A stretch of DNA of 64,000 nt from assembly GCA_020354025.1 (NCBI GenBank), contig CP070638.1:62001-126000 (forward strand). Reading direction: 5' to 3'. The notes beneath the pieces were generated by a model. It saw only the letters and a program-made list of their open reading frames with translations, searched no databases and had not been told where the DNA came from. Origin of the DNA: Fidelibacterota bacterium (lineage in GTDB: Bacteria; Fidelibacterota; Marinisomatia; SCGC-AAA003-L08; TS1B11). Below, one piece after another: positions 21,626-29,095 of the stretch. The translations under genes were made by a program, and so were the position numbers. The first letter of the stretch is position 1, and each line of letters opens with the position of its first letter.

Positions 21626-22174
21626 CTATCTCAGTTTAGACAGCTCGCGCTCCAGATCCTCAAAGCCCTGCTCGGCCTTGAACTCGTTCCAGAGAGCTTC
21701 CTCCTGCCGGGCCGACTCCACGGCTGCCTGCCGGGCCTCGTCCAGTGAATACTCCACCAGGACGAAATAGGTGCCGTCTTTAGCGATGTACGTCTCCTTG
21801 ATCATGGCACCGTTGAGGGTAGCGTCCGTAACACCCTTGCTCACCGCCTGGGTGAACTCCAATGCTCCGGCCTGCTCGCCGACGCCGCTCTCCTGCATGA
21901 AGTCCTTGACCAGTGATTCCACCTTGATCTTCACGGCAGCGGCTATTTCGTCGCGGGCCCGCTGGGCAGCTACCGTCTTGGCCAAGCTGGGATTCTGCTT
22001 CTTGGCTTGCCCTACGCCGTATATTATGCCTTCCGCAATAGGCCGCTCCAGTGACCACTCGGGCACGTCCCGGCTCTCCCGAGCCTCGGTTGTACCTGAA
22101 ACCACCTTGCCGGCACAGCCCGCCAAAGTCAGCAGCATGCCCCCAAGGATTACTGGGATAAAGATCCGCTTCAT
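21626..22174 (-). CDS. LPP20-family lipoprotein
   Basis: A 182-residue lipoprotein with a lipobox LAGC at residues 17-20. The mature part has 'PEWSLERPIAEGIIYGVGQA' then 'KTVAAQRARDEIAAAVKIKVESLVKDF', the pattern of the LPP20 family: a short PEW/Y segment, a GxG turn, and a helix of repeated small residues followed by a beta 'YFVLVEYSLDEA'. Such proteins are outer-membrane or periplasm-facing anchors of unknown function. It is the last of five coupled genes, starting 4 bases after the DUF4384 lipoprotein stop. The C-terminus is highly charged and helical. Confidence 0.8.
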   Translation of the reverse strand: MKRIFIPVILGGMLLTLAGCAGKVVSGTTEARESRDVPEWSLERPIAEGIIYGVGQAKKQNPSLAKTVAAQRARDEIAAAVKIKVESLVKDFMQESGVGEQAGALEFTQAVSKGVTDATLNGAMIKETYIAKDGTYFVLVEYSLDEARQAAVESARQEEALWNEFKAEQGFEDLERELSKLR

Positions 22175-22178
22175 GGTT

Positions 22179-23240
22179 CTACTCCTTCTCGCTTACGATA
22201 TGAAATTGTACGGCCTTCTCGATCCGCTGGCCTAAGGGAATCTCCGCCAGCCAGCGTTGGAAATCGGTAAAACTTTTGTCTCCGGCCGAAAAGGAGACGT
22301 TCCCTTCCGGTACACTAAGTAGATCTGACAGGTCGGCGATGGGTTGTCTAGTAAATACCGTATAGATGGTCTCGTTGGTAGTTGGTGCACCGGGATCGGC
22401 GGACACCCGGTAATGTATGCCCCGGGAACGTTCCTGTCTCGTGGGCGTCTCCAGCCACTCTCCGGCGGATATGGTATTATCCGGCATGGCGGTGCTGGGG
22501 AACATGAGCATGACCGAATTGTCGCTGAGGAAGTTGAAGACGTAAAGGTATCCATCGGTGCTTGAACGGGCTCGTACGATCAGCTCGTCACCGGCCTTGA
22601 GCAAACGCTCGTTAAGCTCCAGCTCCAGACGCAGGGATGGGTCCCGCTCACCCTTTACTGGCACTACCCGCGCTTCCAGGACGATGCGATATCGGTAGGC
22701 ACCACCTTCCAGTTGCTGTAGGTCGGTGGATAGGATCTTTTCGTCCACCAGGTGGCCGGTGACCGATGAGAGGGCGAAGGTGCTCCAAGTTGACTTCTCG
22801 AAGGCCGCGCCGGCGGTCTCGTCCATAATATCGCTGAGCAGGGAAGTGAAAGACACTTTTTGGGGGAGAGCCTGTTCCAGGCCGGCACCCCGGGCTATCT
22901 GTAGGACCTGCTGCCGGGCCTTCTGGGGAGAAACGGAGGCAGGGAACACTAGCGTGGTATCCACCAGGAACCAGCCTTCTTTCACCTCGTACTCCAGACG
23001 TTCAGTTGAAGCCCGAGTTTCCGCACCAGCCCGGGCTTCTTTGAGAAGAGCTTCCTCATCAGGAACCGGGGCTACAGCGGGCAGAGGAACCACCTCGCCC
23101 CCCTCCAGTTCAACGAAGGCCCGCTCAGCTGCAGTTTGAGATTGATCTGGACCTTCACCCTCGGGACCTGTATCCCGGGGTTTTGAACTACAGCCAGCTA
23201 CAAGGAAGCCGGATAGAATAACGACCTGTAGTAAGCGCAT
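22179..23240 (-). CDS. DUF4384-domain lipoprotein
   Basis: A 353-residue protein with a lipobox LVAGC (Cys17) followed by a Pro/Glu/Gly-rich linker. The middle (about 85-200) is an alpha/beta region with repeated Arg/Ala segments. Residues about 205-300 match DUF4384: 'GDELIVRARSSTDGYLYVFNFLSDNSVMLMFPS'. DUF4384 domains are commonly found beside or fused to caspase-like peptidases in bacteria; the molecular role is unknown. Its start codon shares a base with the caspase stop (23240), so translation is coupled. The lipid anchor would place it on a membrane in the same compartment as the exported caspase. Confidence 0.82.
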   Translation of the reverse strand: MRLLQVVILSGFLVAGCSSKPRDTGPEGEGPDQSQTAAERAFVELEGGEVVPLPAVAPVPDEEALLKEARAGAETRASTERLEYEVKEGWFLVDTTLVFPASVSPQKARQQVLQIARGAGLEQALPQKVSFTSLLSDIMDETAGAAFEKSTWSTFALSSVTGHLVDEKILSTDLQQLEGGAYRYRIVLEARVVPVKGERDPSLRLELELNERLLKAGDELIVRARSSTDGYLYVFNFLSDNSVMLMFPSTAMPDNTISAGEWLETPTRQERSRGIHYRVSADPGAPTTNETIYTVFTRQPIADLSDLLSVPEGNVSFSAGDKSFTDFQRWLAEIPLGQRIEKAVQFHIVSEKE

Positions 23241-24208
23241 CAGTACTCCACCAGAATCTGGTCCATAGTTCCGCCCATAAGTTGGGGAGTTTGCTCGCGG
23301 CTACGTAGCCGCCGGGCCAGGTAGGGTACGTTCTCCATGATATAGCCGAAGACCTCGTCCGAGGTAACCTTGCTGTCCCGGTCGCCGTCGGCCTCGCCCC
23401 GGATACCCTTCAGGAAAAAGTAGGTGAACAGCCCGTGACCTTTCTCCCGGTACCAGGAGCTGATCTGATTGCCGGATGAGGAGGTCAACACCACCCCATT
23501 CTTAAGGTTGGCGGCGGGATTCTCGACGGAAATGAAGATAGGCGAGGCCTGCTGGATGAGCATACCGGCCTCGCTGCCCCCGCTGAAACAGGCATCTACT
23601 ACTACAGTCACCGACCGGACCTCCAGCTCGTTCAATTGGCGGTAGAACTGCTCCAGGCTGTAGCCGGTCTGGGCGGCGTAGTTAGGATCGGCGTCGTGGG
23701 GAACGAAGTAGGCGCTGGCGTTGTCCACGTCTGGGGCGCCATGGCCGGAGTAGTAGATGAATACATCGGATTCGCCGGACTTGATATAGTCCTTAAGCTG
23801 CCCCTCGAAGATGCGGTTGAAGGCTGCCTTGGTGGCCTCCTGGTCCACGGCCATTATGATGTTCTCCTCACGATAGCCCATGGCCTGTACCAGGTAGTCT
23901 CGCACAAGGTTGGCGTCGCGCCGGGCGAAGTCCACCGGGGGAACGTCCTGGTGAGCATACTCGGTGATGCCTATGACCACCCCCACGGCATCGGGTCGCA
24001 GATTGGCGGCGGTGGGAATATCGACATCTACGTCGCTAGTGGGATAAGCTTCCACCGGCTCCGGCTCGGTAGCGGTGGGTTCAGTGTATCCCGGCGGCAC
24101 GATCTTTACCTTTCTGGGTCTGCTCACTCCTTCGAAATCCTGGGCGACCAGCCAGCCCAAGCCCAGCACCAGAACCGCCAGCAGATTAATAATAGATTTC
24201 AAACGCAT
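23240..24208 (-). CDS. exported caspase-family (C14) peptidase with EF-hand-like loop
   Basis: A 322-residue protein with a signal peptide (residues 1-23, ending 'WLVAQ') and an acidic linker (about 40-70). The C14 domain starts at 'AVGVVIGITEYAHQDVPPVDFARRDA' and carries the catalytic His156 in YYSGHGA and Cys207 in VDACFSGG. Residues 274-285 (DGDRDSKVTSDE) fit the EF-hand calcium-loop spacing with Asp at 1, 3 and 5, Val at 8 and Glu at 12. Both catalytic residues are present, so it is likely active. The 5' end overlaps the preceding lipoprotein gene by 23 bases and its stop touches the DUF4384 gene. Export places it in the periplasm or on the surface, unlike cytosolic defence caspases. Confidence 0.9.
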   Translation of the reverse strand: MRLKSIINLLAVLVLGLGWLVAQDFEGVSRPRKVKIVPPGYTEPTATEPEPVEAYPTSDVDVDIPTAANLRPDAVGVVIGITEYAHQDVPPVDFARRDANLVRDYLVQAMGYREENIIMAVDQEATKAAFNRIFEGQLKDYIKSGESDVFIYYSGHGAPDVDNASAYFVPHDADPNYAAQTGYSLEQFYRQLNELEVRSVTVVVDACFSGGSEAGMLIQQASPIFISVENPAANLKNGVVLTSSSGNQISSWYREKGHGLFTYFFLKGIRGEADGDRDSKVTSDEVFGYIMENVPYLARRLRSREQTPQLMGGTMDQILVEY

Positions 24209-24998
24209 CGGAAATGCTCATTCTCTCGGGATTATCAGTGAAATAGATCATTATACGATAATCAGTACCCAATTCGAGATCATTAGGGATATGCCAATCT
24301 AATTTAGGTTCATCGTCATAATAAGTGGCGTTACTGTCACTTTTAATAAACTGTATAATCACAGGTCCTTTCAATAGGGCAGCCGTCACGGATTGACTTT
24401 GTACAGTTCCCCAACTGATAGTCTCTGTGTTATTCCGTCTCCATCTGTAGTCTCTCTTGGGGTATATTATTTCCAGACCATCCTCATGAGTGATACTCCT
24501 CCAGCTCAAACTGTATTGTCCCTCGTTGCTGCGGGATTCGCCTTGGAGCAGCATAGTAAAGGAAAAGTCCAGGCCATAAAGGATTGTCCAGTAACCCTGC
24601 TCAAAGTTATCAACCGGATAATTGTAGAGGGTATCCAGCAGGAAATCATACTCCTCCAGGTTCCGGCTGAAAATGCGCATGGTGACATTATCCAGTTCAG
24701 ACCGCAACAGCAGCTGTCCGACAGAATCAGCAGTAATCTGGAGATTAAAATAATCCAGGTCGCCCGCCGGAGCTATGACGGGATAGATAGTAGTGTCGAT
24801 TGGCAGCGGGTAGGGATTGTAGTCGTTGCAGCATTGGTCTTCGACCAGTTCGTAAGGATCTTCCAGAACGTCCCGTTCCAACCATTGGTCGTTTTCGGAA
24901 AAGATGAGATTCTCGATAATTCCGGGTCGCGTCTGCTCACAAGCCGTCAGCCATAGGACAAACGGTAGAAAAATGAAAAGTAAATATTTTGGTTTCAT
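24186..24998 (-). CDS. lipoprotein with C-terminal Kre9/KNH-like Ig domain
   Basis: A 270-residue lipoprotein: lipobox LTAC at residues 17-20, a middle beta-rich region with two adjacent cysteines (QCCNDY), and a C-terminal domain (about 165-270) with 'YRWRRNNTETISWGTVQSQSVTAALLKG', 'WHIPNDLELGTDYRIMIYFTDNPERMSISDAFEIYY'. That spacing of SW, W-x-P, Y-R-I and S-x-x-F-x-I resembles the Kre9/KNH N-terminal domain (PF10342) seen on secreted bacterial and fungal proteins. The mean composition is AT-richer than its neighbours. It overlaps the genes on both sides, 23 bases with the caspase and 4 bases with the barrel-like protein. Confidence 0.7.
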   Translation of the reverse strand: MKPKYLLFIFLPFVLWLTACEQTRPGIIENLIFSENDQWLERDVLEDPYELVEDQCCNDYNPYPLPIDTTIYPVIAPAGDLDYFNLQITADSVGQLLLRSELDNVTMRIFSRNLEEYDFLLDTLYNYPVDNFEQGYWTILYGLDFSFTMLLQGESRSNEGQYSLSWRSITHEDGLEIIYPKRDYRWRRNNTETISWGTVQSQSVTAALLKGPVIIQFIKSDSNATYYDDEPKLDWHIPNDLELGTDYRIMIYFTDNPERMSISDAFEIYY

Positions 24999-25939
24999 TG
25001 GGTTGGAATATGTAATCCTATTTCTAAGAAAGCCTCGGTAAAGTTAACCCATGAGCTAAGGAAATACTGTCTGGCACCAACGTTCAACTTAATCCATCGA
25101 AATAGATTGACCTGCACACCCGCCTCAGCGAACAGACCCGGATTATTGATGGATGATGTAGTGCTTCCCTGAGCGTTGCCGATCCGAAATTGGCTAAAGC
25201 TCACGCCACCACCGACCTGTGGGAGGAACAGTCCAAACACCGGCAGCGGTGTGTAGGCCATGGAGAAGGAGAATCCGGCGTAGTGGAGCATGATCTGTCC
25301 GCCCTCGAACATCGGATCGCCGAAGGACAGATACTCCAAACGCTGCCGATCTCGCTCCTCGGCAAGGTTCATGTCCCAGTTGCGATATAGCAGGTTAAAG
25401 CGATAAACAAACGGCACGGCGGTGATGCGCAGGCCAAGCCGGCCATTGAGGTTTGGCTGCAGGTTCCTGTCATTCATTGTGTTCTCAGTAGGCCCGCTCT
25501 TAAGGAGGTAGTAATATCCGCTACCGCCATAGAAGGTAATGCCGTTACTCAGCCGCTTGGTGAAACGGTTGCCAACCACCAGGGAGCGGAAGAATCCAGA
25601 GACCGTCTGGCGCGTTCGACCCACTACCTTGATGACCAGGTTTTCGGAAACCAAGGCCGGCATATCATCCAGTACCTTCCAGAGGATGCTCTTCCGGCCC
25701 GCACCGACCACGCGCTGGCCGACATCACCAGTAACACTACCAGCATGGATAGGGAAGGCGTATCCACCATCCAGAGAAGCATAGAGGTCTATGGAGTAAA
25801 CGGCGTCGGGCTCCGTGTCATAAATGGTATAGGTAACCTCGATGAGATTGCCGGGGAGCACCTCAAAATCCACCATGGTGATAGATTGCGCTGACAACCC
25901 CGACACACAAATCATGAACATGAAGCTGAGCTTGCGCAT
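24995..25939 (-). CDS. outer-membrane barrel-like protein with N-terminal Ig-like domain
   Basis: A 314-residue exported protein (signal peptide 1-18, ending 'GLSAQS'). Residues about 20-105 form an Ig/FN3-like domain with 'VTYTIYDTEPDAVYSIDLYASLDGG' and 'SGDVGQ-type' turn 'VTGDVGQRVVGAGRKSILWKV'. Residues about 115-314 show alternating aromatic beta strands (YGGSGYYYLLKSG, FSFSMAYTP, VNLFRWIKLNVGARQYFLSSWVNF), as expected of an outer-membrane beta-barrel; the C-terminus lacks the classic terminal Phe. It is the first gene of the five-gene operon, 156 bases downstream of the 999-residue surface protein gene. Confidence 0.7.
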   Translation of the reverse strand: MRKLSFMFMICVSGLSAQSITMVDFEVLPGNLIEVTYTIYDTEPDAVYSIDLYASLDGGYAFPIHAGSVTGDVGQRVVGAGRKSILWKVLDDMPALVSENLVIKVVGRTRQTVSGFFRSLVVGNRFTKRLSNGITFYGGSGYYYLLKSGPTENTMNDRNLQPNLNGRLGLRITAVPFVYRFNLLYRNWDMNLAEERDRQRLEYLSFGDPMFEGGQIMLHYAGFSFSMAYTPLPVFGLFLPQVGGGVSFSQFRIGNAQGSTTSSINNPGLFAEAGVQVNLFRWIKLNVGARQYFLSSWVNFTEAFLEIGLHIPTQ

Positions 25940-26095: not shown

Positions 26096-29095
26096 TCAAT
26101 GGACTACTACCAGCTTCAGATAGGCCGTATTTGCCCCAGCCTGGATCTCTGCTACGTACGGGCCCGACGCCACCCGCTGCCCGTTATCATCTCGACCATC
26201 CCATTGTGCCACATAGCGTCCCCGGTACTGCGGCTCGGTATGCAACACCTTCACCTTCCTGCCCATAGCATCATACATCGTGATCACGACATCGGAATAC
26301 CTGGGGATGGTATATACGATATGCGTATAATCACTGAACGGATTAGGATAGTTTGGCCCGAACGAGAATGCCAATTCCTCCTCGCTCTCCGGCGCAACTC
26401 CGATCATCGATTCCAGCATCAGTGTGAGTGTATCACTGGAAGTAATGGCCCCTTCGCTGTCACGTGCCAATACTGTCCATCGGAAGATGCCTGTAGTATC
26501 CAGATGAGCAGTCACATCCGTGGAGAGACCCGCCGGGAGCTCCTTGAGTACCTGTTGTCCGGTGATGTCCAGGAGCTGCCAGGTATAGACAAGGTCATCG
26601 TCAGGATCGAGGTTGGGACTCGGGGCCCATTCGAAGGTAATCAGAGTATCGTTCCCGGTATAGCGCAGGCGCTCTTCCCATTCATGGCTATCAGGGCCGA
26701 TTCCCAGGAAAAGGCCTGGTGGATCATTTTCAGGGATCACGCTCACAGCAAAATCCCGGCTCGAGGCAGCTCCAGCCTGATCGGTAACTTTGAGCCTTAC
26801 AGCCAGCTTCCCGAACCAGTTAGCCCGAGGACGTACGACGGTGATGGGCCCTTCCCTTTCAAAGGTGAGGGGCAGAGAACCGCCGCCCACGCGCATAAAA
26901 CGGAGGATCAGATCCTCAAAGCTGTCGTCCACATCGTGTACATAGGGGCGCCAATCGACGTGTGCTGTGTCGTCTTCCATTAGGCGGAGACCGGGCAGAC
27001 GTCCCAGCGTAGGTGGATCATTCACCGCCAAAACGGTCACTTTGAATCTGTCGAAGACCACTGCGCTGGTATCGCTGGCATCCCGGGCGGACACCACGAA
27101 TGACCGGCTACCGTGCCAGTCGGGCGTAACCGCCAGCACCAGGTCATCCTCTCGCTTAACCAGGCTGACCGTATCGTCATTGGAAAGACTGTATATAGTA
27201 TATTGGGTGATAACCGTATCCCGGGTATGGTCAGGATCAATAAATATCTCGGACAGCCTCCCAATAACGGAGGGGGTGGCATCTTCAATAAGCACCATAT
27301 CGGGGAGCGGCGCTACCAACCGGGGCAGGTCATTGACGGGAGTGATGGCCAGCAGAAAAGTATCAGCTACTACCTGCTCCAGCTCATTAACTGCCTCTAC
27401 TATCACACTGCCGGTCCCGTGGTAATCTGGGCTTCCGGCCGCCCTCAGCCACCCGTCATCTTCCGCTTTAAGTTCCACATTTTCTCCGAACGGATTAGAG
27501 ATGCGATAGGATATTTGGTGGTTGGCATCAGCAAAGACTTTTGTTAGGTCAACCAGCGGATACCAGCCGGGAAAATCTTCCATCAGAGTGACAGCAGGGA
27601 TAGTATCTAGCCGCAGGAGTGGCTGGTCGAGTCCACTACCGCTCAGACTTACCCTGAATTCTTGTGGTTCATCGAGGACAGCGAAGTGTAGTATCGCGGT
27701 GTCGGAATAGTCCCGCATGTCGAAGGGACGGAAATAGAGCGGAATATCAAGATGTTCGCCGGGAGCAAGGCCGAAAACCAGTGGCGGCGTGGAAAATGCC
27801 GCTTCCCCTCTCTCAAGCTCCAGGGATATACTCAAGGGCACAGTGCCCTGGTTCGTCACGGCCAGGGATTGCATGGCGGTTTCCAGGACTGGTTGCAGGC
27901 CGAAGTTCACGTGGGCGGTGGAAGCGGTGAGGGGCAGGACCACCTCCGCTCTGACAGGCAGCATCAGATCCGGTAGCATTTTCGGTCCGTAGTCGCTCTC
28001 GGATCTAAACTGCTGAATGAAAGGGATCTCGGCCTGGAATAATCCGGCTCTGAGCGGCGAAAATACCAGGTCGATGTAGGCCGTATCTCCGGGGACCACT
28101 TCCAGATGAGGAGCTATTTCGATCCACTGCAAGGGGTCTTTTGTTACCCCATATTCTGTGAATTCCACTCCACCCCCGCCGACTTGCCGCCGGTCCAGGA
28201 TAACAGTCCGCTCCGATCTATTCCCTACTGCCATACGCTGGTGATAGCTGTTGCCGGCGATCACCGAACCGAAGGTCAATGTATCCTCCATAAGATAGGC
28301 CGCCTGTATTGCCTCGCCCTGCAATCCTATTACCATTAAGGCCCTCGCATTTCCCGCCCGGTAGGGTAGACTGATCCGGGAGTTGAATAGACCGGCCATT
28401 TCCGGGATCCAGGTAACAGTAAGCGTTACAGAGGTCTCTCCCACTAAAATTTGTGGCAGTGGCGATAGCTTCACACCGACAGGTATCACCGGTGGCACTG
28501 TAAAAGTGATTGGGCGGGTACCCGTATTATGCAGCTTGACTTGGGTGGTATTTTCCGCACCTACGAAGCTGTGGAGCAAGACAGCGGTTGGCGGCGCAGC
28601 AATCAGCGGTGACTTGGGTGTCGCCATCAGTGTTATGGTCAAGATCTCAGCCAGATTGAATTCCGGCGACTGCCAATGGATATCCAACTCAATCTCGTGG
28701 GTATCCAGGTCGACCTGGGTATAGGTCACAGGAAAGCGTATAAACTGACCTGGGCTCAGTGTCTGGAGCGGGAGGATTACCTGCACAATCCTTTCAGGGA
28801 ATATCAGTGAATCTAGGGTGATCACTCCCTCACCCAAGTTGACCAAGTCCATGAAAAGGGTACGCGACTCATCCGGTAATAGCTCCTCGAAAAACAGTTT
28901 GTCAGTGCTGGGACTGAGTTCTGGCTTAGGCACAGCAATGGCAGATCGCTCCAGGGAATCCAGGTCGGTGGTATCCTCCTGCGGTGTGTAGCGCACACCG
29001 ACCTCACTAGCGATGCTTGTCGGATGGGCTAGACCTGCGGCCAGTATGAGTACAAACGCCGTCAATCGGTGCCATGGAACCGTTGGTTGAGTCAT
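26096..29095 (-). CDS. large surface protein with ASH/choice-of-anchor-D and cadherin-like repeats and C-terminal FlgD-like sorting domain
   Basis: A 999-residue exported protein (signal peptide about 1-30). Residues 50-480 are repeated Ig-like blocks of the ASPM-SPD-2-Hydin type, for example 'GEGVITLDSLIFPE' and 'GTVPLSISLELERGEAAFS'. Residues about 500-840 hold several cadherin-like modules marked by 'NDLPRLVAPLPDM', 'NDPPTLGRLPGL' and 'NDPPGLFLG'. The C-terminal 90 residues carry 'NYPNPF' and 'VYTIPRYSDVVITMYDAMGRKVKVL', the FlgD-like/T9SS-type A sorting domain. It is probably delivered to the cell surface. It is on the same strand as, and upstream of, the caspase operon, separated by an operator-bearing gap. 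Confidence 0.85.
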   Translation of the reverse strand: MTQPTVPWHRLTAFVLILAAGLAHPTSIASEVGVRYTPQEDTTDLDSLERSAIAVPKPELSPSTDKLFFEELLPDESRTLFMDLVNLGEGVITLDSLIFPERIVQVILPLQTLSPGQFIRFPVTYTQVDLDTHEIELDIHWQSPEFNLAEILTITLMATPKSPLIAAPPTAVLLHSFVGAENTTQVKLHNTGTRPITFTVPPVIPVGVKLSPLPQILVGETSVTLTVTWIPEMAGLFNSRISLPYRAGNARALMVIGLQGEAIQAAYLMEDTLTFGSVIAGNSYHQRMAVGNRSERTVILDRRQVGGGGVEFTEYGVTKDPLQWIEIAPHLEVVPGDTAYIDLVFSPLRAGLFQAEIPFIQQFRSESDYGPKMLPDLMLPVRAEVVLPLTASTAHVNFGLQPVLETAMQSLAVTNQGTVPLSISLELERGEAAFSTPPLVFGLAPGEHLDIPLYFRPFDMRDYSDTAILHFAVLDEPQEFRVSLSGSGLDQPLLRLDTIPAVTLMEDFPGWYPLVDLTKVFADANHQISYRISNPFGENVELKAEDDGWLRAAGSPDYHGTGSVIVEAVNELEQVVADTFLLAITPVNDLPRLVAPLPDMVLIEDATPSVIGRLSEIFIDPDHTRDTVITQYTIYSLSNDDTVSLVKREDDLVLAVTPDWHGSRSFVVSARDASDTSAVVFDRFKVTVLAVNDPPTLGRLPGLRLMEDDTAHVDWRPYVHDVDDSFEDLILRFMRVGGGSLPLTFEREGPITVVRPRANWFGKLAVRLKVTDQAGAASSRDFAVSVIPENDPPGLFLGIGPDSHEWEERLRYTGNDTLITFEWAPSPNLDPDDDLVYTWQLLDITGQQVLKELPAGLSTDVTAHLDTTGIFRWTVLARDSEGAITSSDTLTLMLESMIGVAPESEEELAFSFGPNYPNPFSDYTHIVYTIPRYSDVVITMYDAMGRKVKVLHTEPQYRGRYVAQWDGRDDNGQRVASGPYVAEIQAGANTAYLKLVVVH

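Follow-up and report, generated by a model that had tools for sequence, protein, structure and literature searches.

Within a 64,000-nucleotide stretch of a Fidelibacterota genome (GenBank assembly GCA_020354025.1, contig CP070638.1, positions 62,001 to 126,000; hereafter the window) we analysed a compact set of five genes that may encode a proteolysis system of the outer membrane, with an exported caspase at its centre. Five open reading frames (ORFs) were confirmed at the coordinates proposed in an earlier note on this DNA, which had given no strand; all lie on the minus strand, as do all the window features cited below. In order of transcription, they code for a 314-aa exported protein with an N-terminal beta domain and a predicted eight-stranded outer-membrane barrel (24995-25939), a 270-aa lipoprotein with a Kre9/KNH-like immunoglobulin (Ig) domain at its C-terminus (24186-24998), a 322-aa exported C14 caspase-fold protease (23240-24208), a 353-aa lipoprotein with a putative SHS2/FlgT_N-LPP20-like domain (residues about 90-195) and a DUF4384 domain (215-300; gene at 22179-23240), and a 182-aa LPP20 lipoprotein, a member of an SHS2-like fold family (21626-22174). 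The spacing given in the earlier note for five genes in one direction was confirmed: the first three junctions are overlaps (-4, -23 and -1 bases), and 4 bases separate the last two genes (+4). Its claim of export signals in all five proteins, with a lipobox in three, was borne out by reading the leaders by eye and by pattern: the lipoboxes are LTAC (KNH), VAGC (DUF4384) and LAGC (LPP20), and the leaders of the barrel protein and the caspase are of the signal-peptidase-I type, end in SAQ and VAQ, respectively, and have no lipobox. The Pfam matches over cut-off were Peptidase_C14 (PF00656, 7.9e-12), DUF4384 (2.2e-11) and LPP20 (2.9e-12). All five proteins are under purifying selection, the ratio of nonsynonymous to synonymous divergence (dN/dS) being about 0.09-0.13 against the relative G187, with dS near saturation for some of them. 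A promoter and terminator scan gave no excess above shuffled sequences, a PHROGs search gave nothing useful, and a tblastn search with DUF4384 against plasmids gave no match.

The barrel protein is conserved in 8 genomes and had no match to any family. Its AlphaFold model has a low confidence (mean predicted local distance difference test score, pLDDT, 49.8), with eight long strands between residues 133 and 312 in the C-terminal half, and the proteins that it matched in Foldseek (E about 1e-7) were Ail, OmpX and NspA; such a model supports a barrel as the general fold, not its details. In the second protein, Kre9_KNH (PF10342) scored 19.2 bits, under the cut-off of 24.6; in G001, G119 and G130, the KNH lipoprotein encoded at the matching locus does reach it. 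A gene of G106 (L063 3115-4101) fuses the N-domain of the barrel protein to an FGE-sulfatase-type enzyme, beside a DUF4384 lipoprotein.

The caspase consists of a signal peptide, a variable Pro/Glu-rich linker and a catalytic domain (residues 77-310) that scores 45.8 bits for Peptidase_C14, against a cut-off of 21.4. In an alignment of 14 caspase relatives, the catalytic His156 (YYSGHGAPD; codon at 23741-23743) and Cys207 (DACFSGG; 23588-23590) are invariant (14/14). So is Asp98 (23915-23917), the equivalent in the S1 pocket of Asp95 of TbMC2, the surrounding region being aligned by HMMER with the N-D motif of metacaspases. A second acidic S1 residue, Asp205 (23594-23596), is again found in 14/14 and, as it stands two residues ahead of the Cys, is presumably the counterpart of Asp211 of TbMC2. 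It has been reported that these two acidic residues of TbMC2 (Asp95/Asp211) hold basic P1 residues (PMC6426788), and the metacaspase class is characterised by Arg/Lys specificity and, in general, by activation with Ca2+ (PMC4357240). Because of the shared acidic pair and these class properties, specificity for Arg/Lys and control by Ca2+ may be predicted for the exported caspase. A candidate Ca2+ site is the EF-hand-like loop DGDRDSKVTSDE (residues 274-285; 23354-23389), of which positions 1 (D274) and 12 (E285) are invariant in the same 14 sequences.

The earlier note had staked its proposal on gene order being kept in relatives, and the same order is found both across the GTDB family of the source genome (f1) and in a genome of another class. 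In the f1 genomes G192 and G193, the genes for an Ig protein with a sorting tail of the type IX secretion system (T9SS), the barrel protein, the KNH lipoprotein, the caspase, the DUF4384 lipoprotein and the LPP20 lipoprotein are followed by convergent plsY and degV, and this order holds in G187, G189 and G184 as far as their contigs reach. The KNH/caspase overlap, of 23 bases in the window, is of 20 bases in all the relatives. All five roles recur in the same order in G001, which belongs to the other class (barrel 33% identical, positional KNH homologue 65.6 bits, caspase 50%, DUF4384 25%, LPP20 3.4e-6), and a protein with the barrel-type N-domain, a KNH lipoprotein, a caspase and DUF4384 do so in G130. 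More generally, the phylum search placed a caspase match at most about 4 kb from DUF4384, on the same contig, in 13 genomes out of the 20 outside f1 that matched the DUF4384 protein of the window (G001, G021, G116, G119, G130, G132, G206, G207, G214, G217, G218, G220 and G237). The gene set is above chance occurrence. Outside the phylum, a Verrucomicrobium locus (L005 2012-9019) has, in one direction, a CsgG-DUF4384 fusion protein directly upstream of an exported caspase, a lipoprotein and, a few genes on, an FlgT_N protein (4.2e-7), and is a possible cross-phylum version of the system; the caspases of Methylobacterium and Runella plasmids have no adjoining DUF4384. In G116 and G214, a DUF4384-caspase fusion was considered and rejected, the two being adjacent, separate ORFs.

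Three genera appear to have lost the first three genes. G188 and its sister G189, in which the locus is intact, share about 96% DNA identity; relative to G189, G188 has a clean deletion of 2145 bp with a 4-base microhomology, which fuses barrel residues in frame to the caspase tail (L044 3501-4049). In G191 the barrel leader is fused, also in frame, to the last 27 residues of the caspase (L045 9555-9746), and in G190 caspase residues 285-322 are all that remains between the Ig protein and DUF4384 (L075 5798-5911). All three retain the extreme 3' end of the caspase gene, with its stop codon overlapping the start of DUF4384. The deletions look real because the contigs contain no Ns, and they would represent at least two events, as G190 and G191 might share one. 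G186 and G185 also seem to lack parts of the caspase or of DUF4384, but this was dismissed, since runs of N lie at the breakpoints in both scaffolds. DUF4384 is kept in all three deleted genera and LPP20 in G188 and G191, the G190 contig ending inside DUF4384; between G188 and G189, dN/dS is about 0.2 for LPP20 and the Ig protein and 0.49, on few changes, for DUF4384. This block loss suggests a single functional unit of barrel protein, KNH lipoprotein and caspase and an independent function for DUF4384 and LPP20, and therefore we read the locus as two modules, a docked envelope protease and a lipoprotein scaffold of putative SHS2 fold, similar to FlgP/FlgT. The suggestion of the earlier note that the lipoproteins are anchors, sensors or substrates of the caspase has to be narrowed accordingly: DUF4384, and LPP20 where the contig reaches it, persist without the caspase and so cannot be merely its anchors or substrates. 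That the modules can separate would also be expected of separate envelope genes that lie together behind a common promoter and share no function. However, an unchanged order in another class, at sequence identities of 25-50%, the repeated pairing of caspase and DUF4384 and the joint loss of the first three genes are hard to explain without a functional linkage, which makes mere co-location improbable.

A candidate for the docking of the protease lies right behind the signal peptide of the caspase, in the motif Q-x-(F/Y)-E-G-x-(S/G)-(R/P)-x-x-x-V-x-(I/L) (residues 23-36; 24101-24142). It reads QDFEGVSRPRKVKI in the window, QTFEGTSPAKKVEI in G001 and QTYEGTGRSKKVSL in G130, and is followed by the variable Pro/Glu-rich linker. 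This 14-residue motif is present in all nine caspases linked to barrel and KNH genes and, bar one chance WD40 match, in no other caspase of the phylum that was read, a contrast somewhat weaker than the counts imply, as some of the comparison caspases have incomplete N-termini. In the caspase tree, G001 groups with the f1 operon caspases (SH-like approximate likelihood ratio test, SH-aLRT, 86) and G130 falls in another clade (99); the same neighbourhood and the same tail thus occur with two caspase lineages.

The two lipoproteins of the second module point to an assembly. LPP20, FlgP, FlgT and dodecin have a common SHS2-like fold, and FlgP and FlgT build rings associated with the outer membrane (PMC12222027). 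The last protein of the locus belongs to the LPP20 family (47.3 bits against a cut-off of 25.9, with the lipobox), and its profile matches PDB 5ok8 (8e-7). The N-domain of the DUF4384 lipoprotein aligns with the LPP20 profile (hhalign probability 94%), and FlgT_N is weakly matched in 2 of its 25 homologues (best 0.0063). By analogy, the two lipoproteins may form a ring. One might then suppose that the locus is an accessory to the flagellum or to another envelope ring, an FlgP/FlgT-like disk that is trimmed or licensed by the caspase; besides the apparent SHS2 class of the two lipoproteins, the FlgT_N neighbour in the Verrucomicrobium and a strong FliG in most f1 genomes, the source genome included, are in line with this. 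Yet FliG lies at 2.94 Mb and the locus at 0.08 Mb of the 3.40-Mb contig, no flagellar genes adjoin the locus, and G130, 96% complete, has barrel, KNH, caspase and DUF4384 genes with only a weak FliG-like match (2.7e-20), so that we give little credence to a flagellar role. The phylum-wide FliG_C search itself returned a strong group (E about 1e-40) and, in many genomes without a strong match, a second, weaker set of proteins about 310-340 aa long (E about 1e-18), which may not be flagellar FliG.

Taken together, because an exported caspase, a barrel protein and three lipoproteins are encoded in a tightly packed set whose order is kept in relatives, the gene set points to controlled envelope proteolysis, not cell suicide. 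Our preferred interpretation, to which we give a probability of roughly 0.45, is a conserved proteolysis system associated with the outer membrane and composed of two modules. In the first, an exported protease of the metacaspase type would be held by the KNH/Ig lipoprotein and by a small barrel of the outer membrane whose beta domain would lie in the periplasm; the protease would dock through the conserved motif between its signal peptide and a flexible linker, and would cut envelope or secreted proteins after Arg/Lys once Ca2+ fills the EF-hand-like loop. In the second, the two lipoproteins with predicted SHS2-like domains, one of them carrying DUF4384, would form an assembly, on or against which the protease would work, and this assembly would also have its own function. 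The substrate of the caspase, its activation and its complex are what we infer from this gene set. Several observations weigh against this interpretation. The scaffold genes survive without the protease, so that the two modules need not be physically linked, and there are loci with other caspase architectures that have no barrel and KNH genes. The AlphaFold models of the barrel protein and of the DUF4384 lipoprotein (mean pLDDT 36.6 for the latter) are poor because only 2-3 sequences were admissible, and Foldseek found nothing significant with the second. Finally, no conserved basic residue was seen between Cys207 and the C-terminal part of the caspase (the p20/p10 linker), which speaks against activation by self-cleavage between subunits.

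The earlier note had also argued against a cytosolic suicide device, and our data likewise lend such a device no support. A defence or programmed cell death effector, with a caspase that kills the cell or its neighbour, might be suspected from the match of the protein to the generic PADLOC 'caspase' model (1.2e-15), from its below-cut-off score for the EACC1-associated caspase NF047832 of NCBIfam (80.2 against 140 bits), and from a published suggestion that metacaspases outside the cell could serve in fratricide (PMC3501461). Such a role is very unlikely, given a signal peptide in place of a cytosolic sensor, a maintained synteny with housekeeping genes (plsY/degV), partner proteins without any PADLOC match, and a gene set that includes no toxin or immunity gene.

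Upstream of the barrel gene, after a gap of 156 bases, lies the gene for a 999-aa Ig-repeat protein with a T9SS sorting tail (26096-29095), present at this place in all the f1 relatives whose contig reaches that far. The five genes of the earlier note stand, and its unit was slightly short, as this sixth gene, a T9SS cargo, belongs to the neighbourhood conserved in the family. It could be that the caspase matures or sheds this cargo (29095-26096) or other T9SS proteins, in the way that gingipains process surface proteins, and the source genome does encode a PorU-type sortase (628.8 bits; G000:C1:2827930-2831196) and 73 T9SS sorting tails. A T9SS sortase is, however, near-universal in the phylum (189 of 245 genomes) and does not discriminate; the caspase set has no adjoining cargo gene in G001, G130 and L005, and the cargo gene persists where the protease module has been deleted. 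We thus consider T9SS-linked processing unlikely, and return to a two-module system acting at the outer membrane.

That interpretation could be extended, doubtful as we hold the extension to be, to a new class of outer-membrane proteolytic machine, with which several phyla would carry out controlled proteolysis of the envelope. Its caspase, under Ca2+ control and specific for Arg/Lys, would be attached through a short N-terminal tail to a complex of barrel and KNH proteins and would sit on a ring of SHS2 lipoproteins (in Verrucomicrobia, on a CsgG-DUF4384 pore).

Other caspase arrangements were also encountered. The source genome has a second caspase (G000:C1:3273407-3274192; L046 9402-12338), 52% identical and part of a 978-aa ORF with CARDB, which faces two convergent genes for apparent M16 peptidases, a layout shared by G185 and G187. 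Family f29 has a conserved trio composed of a small lipoprotein of about 200 aa, a caspase protein of about 1050-1100 aa and a DUF4384 protein (L060 5101-9855, L061 3484-8237, L059 4722-9403, L064 4058-8884), WD40 repeats being confirmed in the caspase protein of the G214 homologue. In family f18 (L086 2188-10386, L087 3126-11463), tandem exported caspase-fold proteins of about 1615 and 1098 aa have lost the catalytic His/Cys and are conserved pseudo-caspases.

Bacterial caspase homologues are mostly discussed as proteases of death or immunity. If our interpretation is true, a conserved exported caspase with fixed outer-membrane partners would offer the family a role other than death that can be tested; DUF4384, a domain frequently joined to bacterial caspases and so far unexplained, would gain a location and partners, and caspases would be linked to SHS2 lipoproteins otherwise known from flagellar disks. 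No description of the five-gene set was found in the open-access papers searched, the genome survey having covered this phylum, and the set looks undescribed, each part belonging to a known family. That orthocaspases can carry DUF4384 as an accessory domain is known (PMC7475262, PMC6426788), as is the presence of metacaspases in operons that include surface genes, OmpA among them (PMC3501461). With the prokaryotic metacaspases and orthocaspases (MEROPS C14), the exported caspase shares the fold, the His/Cys dyad, the acidic S1 pair and a presumed Ca2+ dependence. It differs from both in its signal peptide and docking-like motif, in the EF-hand-like loop of its C-terminal part, in having DUF4384 on a separate lipoprotein and in its fixed barrel, KNH and LPP20 partners. 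The scaffold module resembles LPP20, FlgP and FlgT, one lipoprotein being an LPP20 and the other similar to it by profile in its N-domain, but unlike FlgP/FlgT it is encoded beside a protease and away from flagellar genes, and its rings are a conjecture. Like gingipains and PorU, the caspase is a cysteine peptidase of clan CD that would act beyond the cytoplasm of a T9SS bacterium, and it would share a basic P1 with the gingipains, but it belongs to C14 and not C25, domain searches found no T9SS sorting tail on it, and the genome has a separate PorU. Finally, it shares an exported clan CD peptidase domain with the caspase-like releasing peptidases of polymorphic toxins (PMC3482391), from which it differs in standing alone, with neither a toxin domain nor an immunity gene.

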